Assembly: GCF_000332175.1 (NCBI RefSeq)
Contig: NZ_KB235914.1
Coordinates: 3,902,868 to 3,966,867, forward strand
DNA length: 64,000 bases
From: Pseudanabaena sp. PCC 6802
Lineage (GTDB): Bacteria; Cyanobacteriota; Cyanobacteriia; Pseudanabaenales; Pseudanabaenaceae
Direction: 5' to 3'
Shown here piece after piece: positions 24,594-49,949 of the stretch. The position numbers and the translations under genes are program-made. Below the pieces are notes generated by a model that did no database searches, was not told the DNA's origin, and saw only the letters and a list, made by a program, of their open reading frames with translations. Positions within the stretch are counted from its first letter, which is position 1; each line of letters opens with the position of its first letter.

Positions 24594-24690
24594 AGTATGT
24601 TTGCAGCTAATCTGCCTACCATTTTAAACCAGCGAGTGAGTGGAGGGGGCGTAGCCCCCTCCACTCACTCAAAACTTTTGTTTCGATCTG

Positions 24691-24850
24691 CTATAGCGTT
24701 TTTCAACTGAGAACAGGTTTTATTGACGGGGTGAAGGGGTTCCACACGGCAGTGGCTCTAGCGGGGAACCCCCAAGACCGCCCTGCCTCCCCTTCTTGGG
24801 GGCAATGCCCCCAAACCCCCTAATCTTTCCGATCTGAAAAACGCTATAGC
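24691..24850. repeat. Dispersed palindromic repeat, family A (long copy 3)
   Basis: Starts CTATAGCGTTTTTCAACTGA and ends TCTGAAAAACGCTATAGC. It carries an extra central block (ccacacggcagtggctctag and onward) also found, inverted, in the copy at 48394 but missing in copies 1, 2 and 4. The right end touches the stop codon of the MliC-like gene and could serve as its terminator-like hairpin. Confidence 0.85.
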
Positions 24851-46790: not shown

Positions 46791-47605
46791 CAATTAATAC
46801 TGACGCCACGCAAATCAGGAGAAAGTTTCTCAAAATAGCCAAGATCCTGCATCCAGATGTGGCAGCTTACAGTCCTACCGAAAAGGAATTGGCTACCAAA
46901 TACTTTGCCAAGCTAGTTAGTCCAGCTTATCAAATTCTGACCGACGATCGCGAACGGGCAGAGTACTTTATTGCCCTCCGCCACCTGGCTCAAGCACTCA
47001 AGCAAACCTCTGCCAAACTCGATCTGCAATCCGAATTGGCACGACAGTTTTTGCAGAATCCACATCCATCTAACTATCTCAAAGCAGTGAGCGAAATTGC
47101 GAATATGCAATATCGTTCTTTAGACAAGTTTCTGGACTACTCTGCCGATTTGAGCGAACTTAACCTGGTCTATCTCATGACTCAGGAAAACATCTTCCAG
47201 ACTGCCAGGAGCACGTCTTACGGTCAAGCCTCAGAAGATGAAACTATAGTTCAGGATCCTAACCAACTGAAAGTAGAGCGCGGCATGCAGCTAGCCGAGA
47301 TGTACATTGGTAAGAAGCTGTGGACTGAAGCAATGGCAGAGTTAAAAACTCTGACTAAACTGGCTCCAAATAATAGTAAAGCTCATGCGTTGATGGGGGT
47401 GGTGTATACAAATCAGAATTTAGCTGTGATGGCTAAAACCTGCTTCCAAAAAGCACTGAGTCTCGATCCTAAAAACCAGATCGCGCTCAAATATATGAAC
47501 CAGCCCGGCGGCGCTCAGCCAAAGGCAGCTTCAGGATCGGCAAAACAACCACCTAAGAAAGATGAAAAGAAAGGCGGCGGCTGGTTTGGTTGGGGTAAAA
47601 AGTAG
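46709..47605 (+). CDS. J-domain and TPR protein
   Basis: A 298-aa protein. The N-terminal J-like domain (about 18-85) has DHYAVLGVAINTDATQIRRK and LHPDVAAYSPTEK; the catalytic HPD is present, so it could stimulate an Hsp70. A middle helical region follows, then TPR-like helices (about 190-260, MQLAEMYIGKKLWTEAMAEL and SKAHALMGVVYTNQNLAVMA), and a Lys/Gly-rich tail ending GWFGWGKK. GTG 46709 is chosen because AGGAGG lies 8 nt before it; GTG 46700 is an alternative. It overlaps the binding-protein gene by 82 nt. Probably a cytosolic co-chaperone. Confidence 0.85.
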   Translation: MGQPEVLGISRGIASYKVDDHYAVLGVAINTDATQIRRKFLKIAKILHPDVAAYSPTEKELATKYFAKLVSPAYQILTDDRERAEYFIALRHLAQALKQTSAKLDLQSELARQFLQNPHPSNYLKAVSEIANMQYRSLDKFLDYSADLSELNLVYLMTQENIFQTARSTSYGQASEDETIVQDPNQLKVERGMQLAEMYIGKKLWTEAMAELKTLTKLAPNNSKAHALMGVVYTNQNLAVMAKTCFQKALSLDPKNQIALKYMNQPGGAQPKAASGSAKQPPKKDEKKGGGWFGWGKK

Positions 47606-48374
47606 CATTTTCCATCGTCGTTCGCTCCGACAGCGTTTCCGTTCGGCTTTGAGCAGTACGTGCGTATTATTGCCGCCACTAGCAGCTAACCATTTACCTA
47701 GCTCGATCGAGGCGGTAATTTTAGATCGCTCTCAAGATACTAAGGAGCCAGTGCTCCGAACCGTAAGCGCGATCGCCATCGGGCTATGGCAACATCAAGA
47801 TCTAAACGCACTGTCTCGCTACTTTTCGTATCTCGAAGATCAGATCGTAGCTCTTCTCATTGCTGTAGCCTGCCGCGATGCTTTAAGTCCTAAAAGCGCG
47901 ATCGCCGAGATCGAAGATTTCCTGAGCGATCGCTTTCGCTGGAGTTCCGATCGTCAAGACGAGATCGCCCTATTGTCACATCAACTCGATCTGGTGCGTA
48001 CTTTAGTCGATCGCGGGGCTAGCGGTGCGATCGCCCAGTCCGCACTAATTTCCTCAAGTCAGGACGATCGTGCCATGAATGGCAAAATAAACATTGCTTA
48101 TGGTCTATACTGCTGGCTCAGTACGCCGTATAACTGGCAGCTTGCCGTATCCCGCGCCCAGCAGGTACGGCCAGAATTAGGAGTAGCGATCGGAGCGATC
48201 GCCGCTGCCCACAACGGCAATCTACCACCAGGCGATACAGGTGCCATAGAAACAGGCACGATCCTGGGCGATCGGCTACTGGCTGCCTGGGCAGGGGTCA
48301 TAAATTGGCAACACCCCGACCCAGATTTTTATGCCACGATTACCGCCCCAGATATTTTGGGGAAAAGATTCTAG
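47562..48374 (+). CDS. Degenerate ADP-ribosylglycohydrolase-like protein
   Basis: A 270-aa frame. From about residue 45 on, an all-helical pattern resembles ADP-ribosylglycohydrolases (DraG/ARH); the strongest match is near the end: AYGLYCWLSTPYNWQLAVSR followed by AIGAIAAAHNGNLPP and GTILGDRLLAAW. The metal-binding GDxxG and final DTDT motifs of active enzymes are not present, so catalysis is doubtful. The first 30 residues overlap the J-domain gene and are not conserved-looking; TTG 47649 (codon 30) is a possible real start. No independent ribosome binding site is evident. Confidence 0.55.
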   Translation: MKRKAAAGLVGVKSSIFHRRSLRQRFRSALSSTCVLLPPLAANHLPSSIEAVILDRSQDTKEPVLRTVSAIAIGLWQHQDLNALSRYFSYLEDQIVALLIAVACRDALSPKSAIAEIEDFLSDRFRWSSDRQDEIALLSHQLDLVRTLVDRGASGAIAQSALISSSQDDRAMNGKINIAYGLYCWLSTPYNWQLAVSRAQQVRPELGVAIGAIAAAHNGNLPPGDTGAIETGTILGDRLLAAWAGVINWQHPDPDFYATITAPDILGKRF

Positions 48375-48393: not shown

Positions 48394-48682
48394 CTATAGC
48401 GGTTTTCAGATGAAAACGAGAAGGGGGTTTGGGGGCGTTGCCCCCAAGAAGGGGAGGCAGGGCGATCTTGGGGGTTCCCCGCTAGAGCCACTGCCGTGTG
48501 GAACCCCTGCGCCCCGTCAATAAACACGACTTGGAAGGTTAACACTTGGATATAGGGTTGAAACCCAGCATTTCCGTTAAAGAGGCGAAAATGCCCACGC
48601 TCTAAACCCCATATTTGGCAAGACTTTCAAAATAACCTTCCAAGTCGTGAATAAAACCTGTTCTCAATTGAAAAACGCTATA
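48394..48682. repeat. Dispersed palindromic repeat, family A (copy 5, interrupted by a miniature element)
   Basis: Starts CTATAGCGGTTTTCAGATGA and ends CAATTGAAAAACGCTATA. It has the same long central block as copy 3 (aggcagggcgatcttggggg, tagagccactgccgtgtgg, inverted). The text tcaataaaacctgttctc, continuous in other copies, is split here by an insert at 48525-48649 with AATAAA on both sides. It extends into the 3' end of the next gene (48678). Confidence 0.85.
48525..48649. mobile_element. 125-bp miniature inverted-repeat element with 6-bp target duplication
   Basis: Perfect 17-bp terminal inverted repeats, CACGACTTGGAAGGTTA (48525-48541) and its complement (48633-48649), flanked by AATAAA at 48519-48524 and 48650-48655. 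Deleting the element and one AATAAA restores the uninterrupted family A sequence seen at 11062, 13731 and 41533. It is too short for a transposase, so a MITE moved in trans. I cannot name the parent IS family from memory. Confidence 0.85.
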
Positions 48683-49949
48683 AGCAGGGTTTGGTATTAC
48701 TAGAGATCGCTTTAATCGCCATATCGGCAATTTTGGCAGCGGCTCCTGGCTGCCCGCAGACGGCACGGAGGCGATCGCGCATGTGCTGTAATTTTTCGGG
48801 ATGCTCTAAAAAGTCAATAACCATTTCTGCCACGCCATCCGGTGTCAGGTTACCCACCAGTTCCGGCACGATTTGTTCGCCTGCCCAAATATTCGGCCAG
48901 GCTAATAAATTCAAGCGATCGAGCATAATGCGATTGATAATTTTGGCGATCGCGCTGCCAACTCCGGGCAAATTAGCCAGAATCCCCAGGATGCCGTCCC
49001 AACTACGCATGGCATCGAGTTGATTCGTAGGCAATAAGACCAGCATGGGTACCCCCAAAGCTGCTAGCTCAGCCGTATTTGCCCCCACAGTTGTAATGCA
49101 AAGTTCGCATCGTTTCAGAAAGTCATATGCTGGGAACTCCTGGTTAATTGGTATTTCATTTCCTGCCTGAGTCCGCAGCACGTAAAGCGATCCTGACTCC
49201 ACCAGCTCGGCAGTTGTCCCCTGCACCAGAGCGATGACGGGATTGGGTTGGGCAAATTTGGCGAGATACTGTGGTGTAATCGTTGGTGCCAGAGCGATCG
49301 CCACATCTACATGCGGCATTTTCTGGCGTAATAAATCGCAGATCGCCAGACATAAAGGTACGCCTTGACTGAGTTTCATAGACTTAGATCCAGGCATAAA
49401 TACAATCGATCGCCTTGATTTAGGTTCATTATTCCGATCGTCGGCAACCTCAGAGCGATCGACCATCAAGTCCCCCACAATCTCGCTCTTGTGGCGAAAT
49501 CTGGCGGGAATGCGGTTGTGTACGCTCTCGTTGCGGACGGCAAAACGATCGATCCAACTCGCCCAGCGCGCTTCCCATTCCGCATAAACAATCGTGCTGT
49601 AGCCCAGGCGCTTACCGATCGCGACCGGAAAGATCTGATCGCCACCCAAAAAAATTACGACCCCCCGCTCGTGCCAATCCCAATTAGGCTCAGGTGTTTT
49701 ACCCCATAGTAAGAATTGCCAAAAGCGATCGGGAGCTAGCACTCGATCTACGCCGGGATATTTGCTGGCGATCGCGGCCTCCTGGCCGCTGGCATTGGTA
49801 CAGGGCGACAAAACAACGGAGATACGTATATTTAAGCTATTTAAACTGTCATTTACTCTCCTCGCCAACTCGCGCAAAACAGGATATACCCATGTTGTTA
49901 GCTCGCCTGGGGCATTGGAAAGAATGACAAGATCGGCGAAGTTATCCAT
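48678..49949 (-). CDS. Lipid-A-disaccharide synthase-related protein
   Basis: A 423-aa protein of a cyanobacterial family annotated as LpxB-related glycosyltransferase (GT-B fold). The start LVILSNAPGELTTWVYPVLR (about 7-26) matches. IVFMPGSKSMKLSQGVPLCL (about 183-202) and GANTAELAALGVPMLVLLPTNQLDAM (residues about 288-313) are the nucleotide-sugar side. True LpxB motifs are only partly kept and the substrate is unknown; a role in outer-membrane lipid or glycolipid synthesis is possible. The 3' end abuts family A repeat copy 5. Confidence 0.8.
   Translation of the reverse strand: MDNFADLVILSNAPGELTTWVYPVLRELARRVNDSLNSLNIRISVVLSPCTNASGQEAAIASKYPGVDRVLAPDRFWQFLLWGKTPEPNWDWHERGVVIFLGGDQIFPVAIGKRLGYSTIVYAEWEARWASWIDRFAVRNESVHNRIPARFRHKSEIVGDLMVDRSEVADDRNNEPKSRRSIVFMPGSKSMKLSQGVPLCLAICDLLRQKMPHVDVAIALAPTITPQYLAKFAQPNPVIALVQGTTAELVESGSLYVLRTQAGNEIPINQEFPAYDFLKRCELCITTVGANTAELAALGVPMLVLLPTNQLDAMRSWDGILGILANLPGVGSAIAKIINRIMLDRLNLLAWPNIWAGEQIVPELVGNLTPDGVAEMVIDFLEHPEKLQHMRDRLRAVCGQPGAAAKIADMAIKAISSNTKPCL

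Follow-up and report, generated by a model that had tools for sequence, protein, structure and literature searches.

The element described here lies in a window of 64,000 nucleotides from the genome of Pseudanabaena sp. PCC 6802, where it is flanked by an open reading frame without Pfam match (47562–48374) and a weakly LpxB-like one on the minus strand (48678–49949), whose score of 20.3 bits is below the cut-off of 22.6. The preliminary description had reported 17-bp perfect inverted ends and a duplicated AATAAA at this place, which was borne out to the base over positions 48519–48655 (Table 1). Searching the window for the 17-mer of the ends with up to three mismatches returned two matches, both of them the ends themselves (0.18 expected from shuffles), and the chance of an exact duplication of 6–8 bp at a single site is about 3e-4. 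The segment between the duplications, called M125, has a coding capacity of at most 41 codons and is overlapped by none of the open reading frames listed for the window (100-aa list). M125 shows the features of a MITE: it is short and non-coding, has terminal inverted repeats in common with an autonomous element, is flanked by a target-site duplication and occurs in several dispersed copies. In the window, it is a real and well-supported nested MITE, one small mobile element inside another. The window sequence is also GCGATCGC-rich.

Table 1. Features of the M125 insertion and of the family A repeats in the window.
Feature	Position	Strand	Basis
M125 miniature element, non-autonomous, 125 bp	48525..48649	+	sequence, genome copies
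Left terminal inverted repeat, CACGACTTGGAAGGTTA	48525..48541	+	sequence, pattern match
Right terminal inverted repeat, 17/17 complementary to left	48633..48649	-	sequence, pattern match
AATAAA target-site duplication, left copy	48519..48524	+	sequence
AATAAA target-site duplication, right copy	48650..48655	+	sequence
Family A copy hosting M125, 157 bp once the insert and one AATAAA are taken out, ends TATAGCG...CGCTATA	48395..48682	-	
Uninterrupted family A copy, query for genome search	24688..24850	-	

The repeat that received the insertion belongs to family A. With one AATAAA kept, the flanks of M125 align across the junction with the uninterrupted family A copy of the window (92% over 164 columns), and the nearest copy elsewhere in the genome differs from the empty target by three mismatches and no gaps, so the earlier claim that the reconstructed target matches other family A copies holds gap-free if one AATAAA is counted. 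Of the 30 further genomic copies of family A to which the flanks align, none (0/30) holds the insert at this site; it is therefore not a constituent of all long copies. The right end of family A has 268 matches in the genome at up to three mismatches (control pattern, 0), and the aligned copies start near TATAGCG and finish near CGCTATA with unrelated flanks. From these features, family A looks like a very abundant MITE-like family of its own with a probable TA target; no copy was found in plasmid records. Because no other aligned copy holds the insert and the M125 copies are few (five full and one half) compared with the 268 family A end matches, family A appears to have come first and M125 second, in support of the age order that had been proposed. 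The LpxB-like frame has its stop codon inside the family A copy that hosts M125, in its terminal CTATA (48678–48682), so the repeat end supplies the stop of this gene; among the matches listed for relatives, most end a few residues earlier.

In the 5.62-Mb genome, the full copies of M125 are each exactly 125 bp long. Three of them (L003, L004 and L005) are identical over 125 bp and stand at different places, and L002 differs from these by four bases. The window copy differs from the other full copies by 21–24 bases (17–19% divergence), so none of them is, by sequence, its immediate source. None of the differences among the full copies falls into the 34 end positions (for the 24 between the window copy and L004, p = 1.9e-4 if spread evenly); the ends of M125 are therefore kept while the interior drifts. 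Two other copies are flanked by duplications of AAATTTA and ATCAACA, and two of the five full copies have none. One of the copies, L003, adjoins a fragment of the parent insertion sequence described below, which may explain its missing duplication.

A search with the ends for a parent insertion sequence, as suggested in the preliminary description, returned 23 exact matches of the 17-mer in the genome and one with two mismatches, and led to an intact IS701-like insertion sequence. This element (C5:832841–834334) is uninterrupted over 1494 bp, is flanked by a duplication of CAAGTA and has ends identical to those of M125 at 17/17 positions. Its transposase of 453 aa is encoded in a single open frame and was assigned to DDE_Tnp_1 by Pfam, and its best NCBIfam model is IS701 (NF033540) with 116.8 bits, where the curated cut-off is 150. 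The other three pairs of parent ends are represented by one with an ISKra4-family transposase gene inside, one with an IS256-family gene inside (L035 and L036, a second level of nesting) and one broken over 5 kb. Beyond the 17–19 bp ends, M125 has nothing convincing in common with the parent. The nearest relatives of the parent transposase in plasmid records are from Acaryochloris and Kovacikia (52–66% identity), followed by transposases of haloarchaea, mostly annotated as IS701 (23–30%); a transposase search of a collection of genome contigs gave 25 pattern matches, none of which was confirmed. The exact duplication, the three identical 125-bp copies and the uninterrupted parent support the earlier statement that the elements are, or recently were, active.

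Of 388 genomes from the class, 42 contain the end sequence with at most one mismatch, and the parent transposase has matches, many of them weak, in 61 of 291 genomes (E ≤ 1e-3; own genome included in both counts). With L004 as query, M125 itself matches 12 of the 388 genomes, own included, at E ≤ 1e-3, the matches of G377, G219, G244 and one of those of G157 covering 21–36 bases. Interiors clearly homologous to those of the own M125 copies are present in G210, G262, G131, G110 and G364 (z 5.8–25.1, computed from 60 shuffles); the interior in G058 is weakly similar (z 2.5–4.4), and the 115-bp element of G244 yields z values of 3.3–6.4 against the own copies and −0.4 to 7.7 against M125 members. 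By these alignments, M125 is a non-autonomous family with homologues in other cyanobacterial families. Paired ends are present in ten named contigs, including those of Acaryochloris, Acaryochloridaceae, a Pseudanabaenales MAG, Xenococcaceae MAGs and Candidatus Venteria ishoeyi, the single non-cyanobacterium among the ten carriers. The interiors of the Xenococcaceae and Venteria elements have no detectable relation to M125. Those of Xenococcaceae MAG MO_188.B32 (L136 885–1011, L137 1712–1838 and L140 4612–4738) are 127-bp miniatures with the same ends, and in L140 the middle segment between GCGATCGC motifs appears inverted compared with the other two; the Venteria element (L138 537–662) measures 126 bp, and its ends are almost those of M125 (CACGACTTTGAAGGTTA) while its interior is unrelated.

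M125 was not found outside its own genome among 57 relatives, none of them of the same genus, nor in plasmid records. Three scans of viral contigs for paired-end patterns gave 0, 1 and 0 matches, and the single match (L188) was dropped as chance, since its ends diverge from the terminal repeat beyond the core used in the search. The letters of the terminal repeat had no match in the literature searched. A gene neighbouring the M125 locus is present in 36 of 38 genomes, own included; at 29 orthologous loci of the host family, out of the 35 other genomes with this gene, neither M125 nor family A nor the intergenic flank was present (0/29), and the upstream neighbour of the locus had no match in the same 29 loci.

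We consider it highly probable (about 0.93) that the 125-bp insert is a MITE which was moved in trans by the resident IS701-like transposase and inserted into a pre-existing family A copy under duplication of 6 bp. The family A repeat would already have been in place when M125 arrived. The transposase of the 1494-bp insertion sequence would then have acted in trans on M125, presumably through a DDE-type reaction at each end, and M125 would have inserted into the CAATAAAAC stretch of family A, duplicating 6 bp, in a probably recent event. This reading is supported by the ends, the duplication, the identity of the target, a parent with the same ends and the same size class of duplications, and several identical copies. 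In G058, where the resident insertion sequence has CAGGACTT rather than CACGACTT at its start, the M125-like element (L177 1498–1622) shows this C-to-G change at each of its ends; this single instance suggests that the ends of miniatures follow the transposase resident in the genome. Against the reading stand the interior, which is not shared with the parent, the absence of a duplication in two of the five full copies, and the modest interior similarity of the one G058 case to the own copies.

If the insert were instead an optional internal segment, producing a long form of family A without any separate mobile element, its position within a family A copy would be accounted for, but none of the 30 aligned copies holds it, and M125 stands at four other full-length places of the genome, with different adjacent sequence at each, and in genomes of other families. 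A long form of family A is refuted by these outside copies, and we assign practically no probability to it. An origin of M125 as a relic of another, now lost transposase, with ends common to the resident insertion sequence by ancestry only, would agree with an interior that is not derived from this sequence and with the divergence of the window copy from the other full copies. The end identity of 17/17 on both sides, the same duplication size, the intact resident transposase and the absence of any of the 24 differences from the ends argue against it and render it very improbable. The interior conservation across distant cyanobacteria in the five genomes with clear homologues would be expected of a structured RNA gene which resides on a mobile element or resembles one in shape, and whose interior is kept for RNA function; however, the consensus fold outside the ends consists of small helices of 2–4 bp with a covariation term of −0.78 kcal/mol, and no Rfam match was obtained up to E = 1, so that we give this proposal an equally small chance.

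The parent, for whose transposase IS701 is the best NCBIfam model, resembles this family in its length, which falls into the published range of 1400–1550 bp (PMC2266710), with eight foreign relatives of 1456–1492 bp, and its transposase is without the tyrosine of YREK at its place (judged by eye, METWNYRWSCEVFHEFCK), a residue mostly absent from IS701 as well according to the same source. It differs in scoring under the curated cut-off and in its ends, CACGACTTGGAAG, whose positions 4 and 9 are G in place of the Y of the IS701 consensus ---YACT-Y--YR; the paper giving this consensus adds that it does not cover the whole family (PMC2266710, Table 1). The duplications differ too: IS701 is described there with exactly 4-bp duplications in almost all elements. 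In a survey of 35 elements or parents with M125 ends or near ends (own and foreign, miniatures and parents), exact duplications were of 6 bp in 11 cases, 7 bp in four, 8 bp in three and 4 bp in one, while four had a one-mismatch duplication at 6–7 bp and 12 had none. With 6–8 bp in 18 of 35 elements, the parent group therefore departs from the defining feature of IS701 in that description. On these sequence characters, the group works like IS701, yet misses its 4-bp duplication, which suggests separating this cyanobacterial IS701-like group from IS701 in the sense of that description.

Although the interior of M125 appears unrelated to the parent, its length is conserved between lineages. Parsimony on alignment A1, which comprises ten M125 members, gave 151 substitutions over 91 interior columns, 10 over 34 end columns and two one-base indels; the element of G244, a likely member which is 10 bp shorter, was left out of the alignment and the count. 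A paired-end scan over 78–138 bp, without bias inside this range, detected elements in 9 of 388 genomes with lengths of 104, 105, 115, 124 and 125 bp only. Further miniatures measure 127 and 128 bp (Xenococcaceae) and 126 bp (Venteria), both from a separate scan over 104–134 bp, and 123 bp (G110); in an additional scan covering 63 genomes, two gave matches, and these were known already. The lengths of 104–105, 115 and 123–128 bp cluster near 10, 11 and 12 helical turns. Taking one length for each of six unrelated interior groups, the post hoc and uncorrected p values under uniformity were 0.037, 0.16, 0.08 and 0.08 for periods of 10.0, 10.2, 10.5 and 11.0 bp, respectively; with within-group variants counted, again post hoc and uncorrected, they were 0.005 at 10.5 and 0.002 at 11.0 bp. 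Groups and periods were chosen after the data had been seen, and the values range from 0.002 to 0.16 by grouping and period without resolving the period. Elements of 227 and 284 bp were part of the six-group set and not of the variants set, and two end pairs were left out of the length set, namely one of 175 bp, read as a deleted insertion sequence of G182 with a degraded end, and one of 257 bp, a MITE beside an insertion sequence fragment in the own genome. The small sample gives a hint of a helical-turn constraint, and we regard it as a rather doubtful proposal that miniature lengths in this transposase group are confined to about 10, 11 and 12 whole turns, because synapsis on DNA below the persistence length would require both ends to point to the same side.

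Helical-period length dependence is cited for experiments with transposon ends, IS50 among them, and for natural elements in the internal eliminated sequences of Paramecium (PMC3464196). The latter offer an analogy only, their lengths below 150 bp following the helical turn of DNA, and they are eukaryotic, are excised by a domesticated piggyBac transposase and number 45,000, compared with about six groups here. If the constraint holds, natural bacterial MITEs would show the length quantisation known for these sequences.

Elements of this kind are known from cyanobacteria. Nezha (Zhou 2008, as cited in PMC10969869 and PMC3733652) is by its description likewise a short non-coding cyanobacterial MITE with inverted ends. 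The MITEs of Anabaena sp. 90 measure 77–541 bp and are type II, with no insertion sequence carrying their ends in that genome according to PMC3542288, whereas M125 has one. What is added are the M125 family, a parent group with 6–8 bp duplications and a possible length constraint. The insertion in the window is a clean natural record, preserving the exact target, the exact duplication and the order of events, with the parent in the same genome. Since the wider family offers several related parents and miniatures whose ends match, it can be tested whether the ends of a miniature track the transposase resident in the genome, and whether helical phase sets a limit to the length of very short elements.
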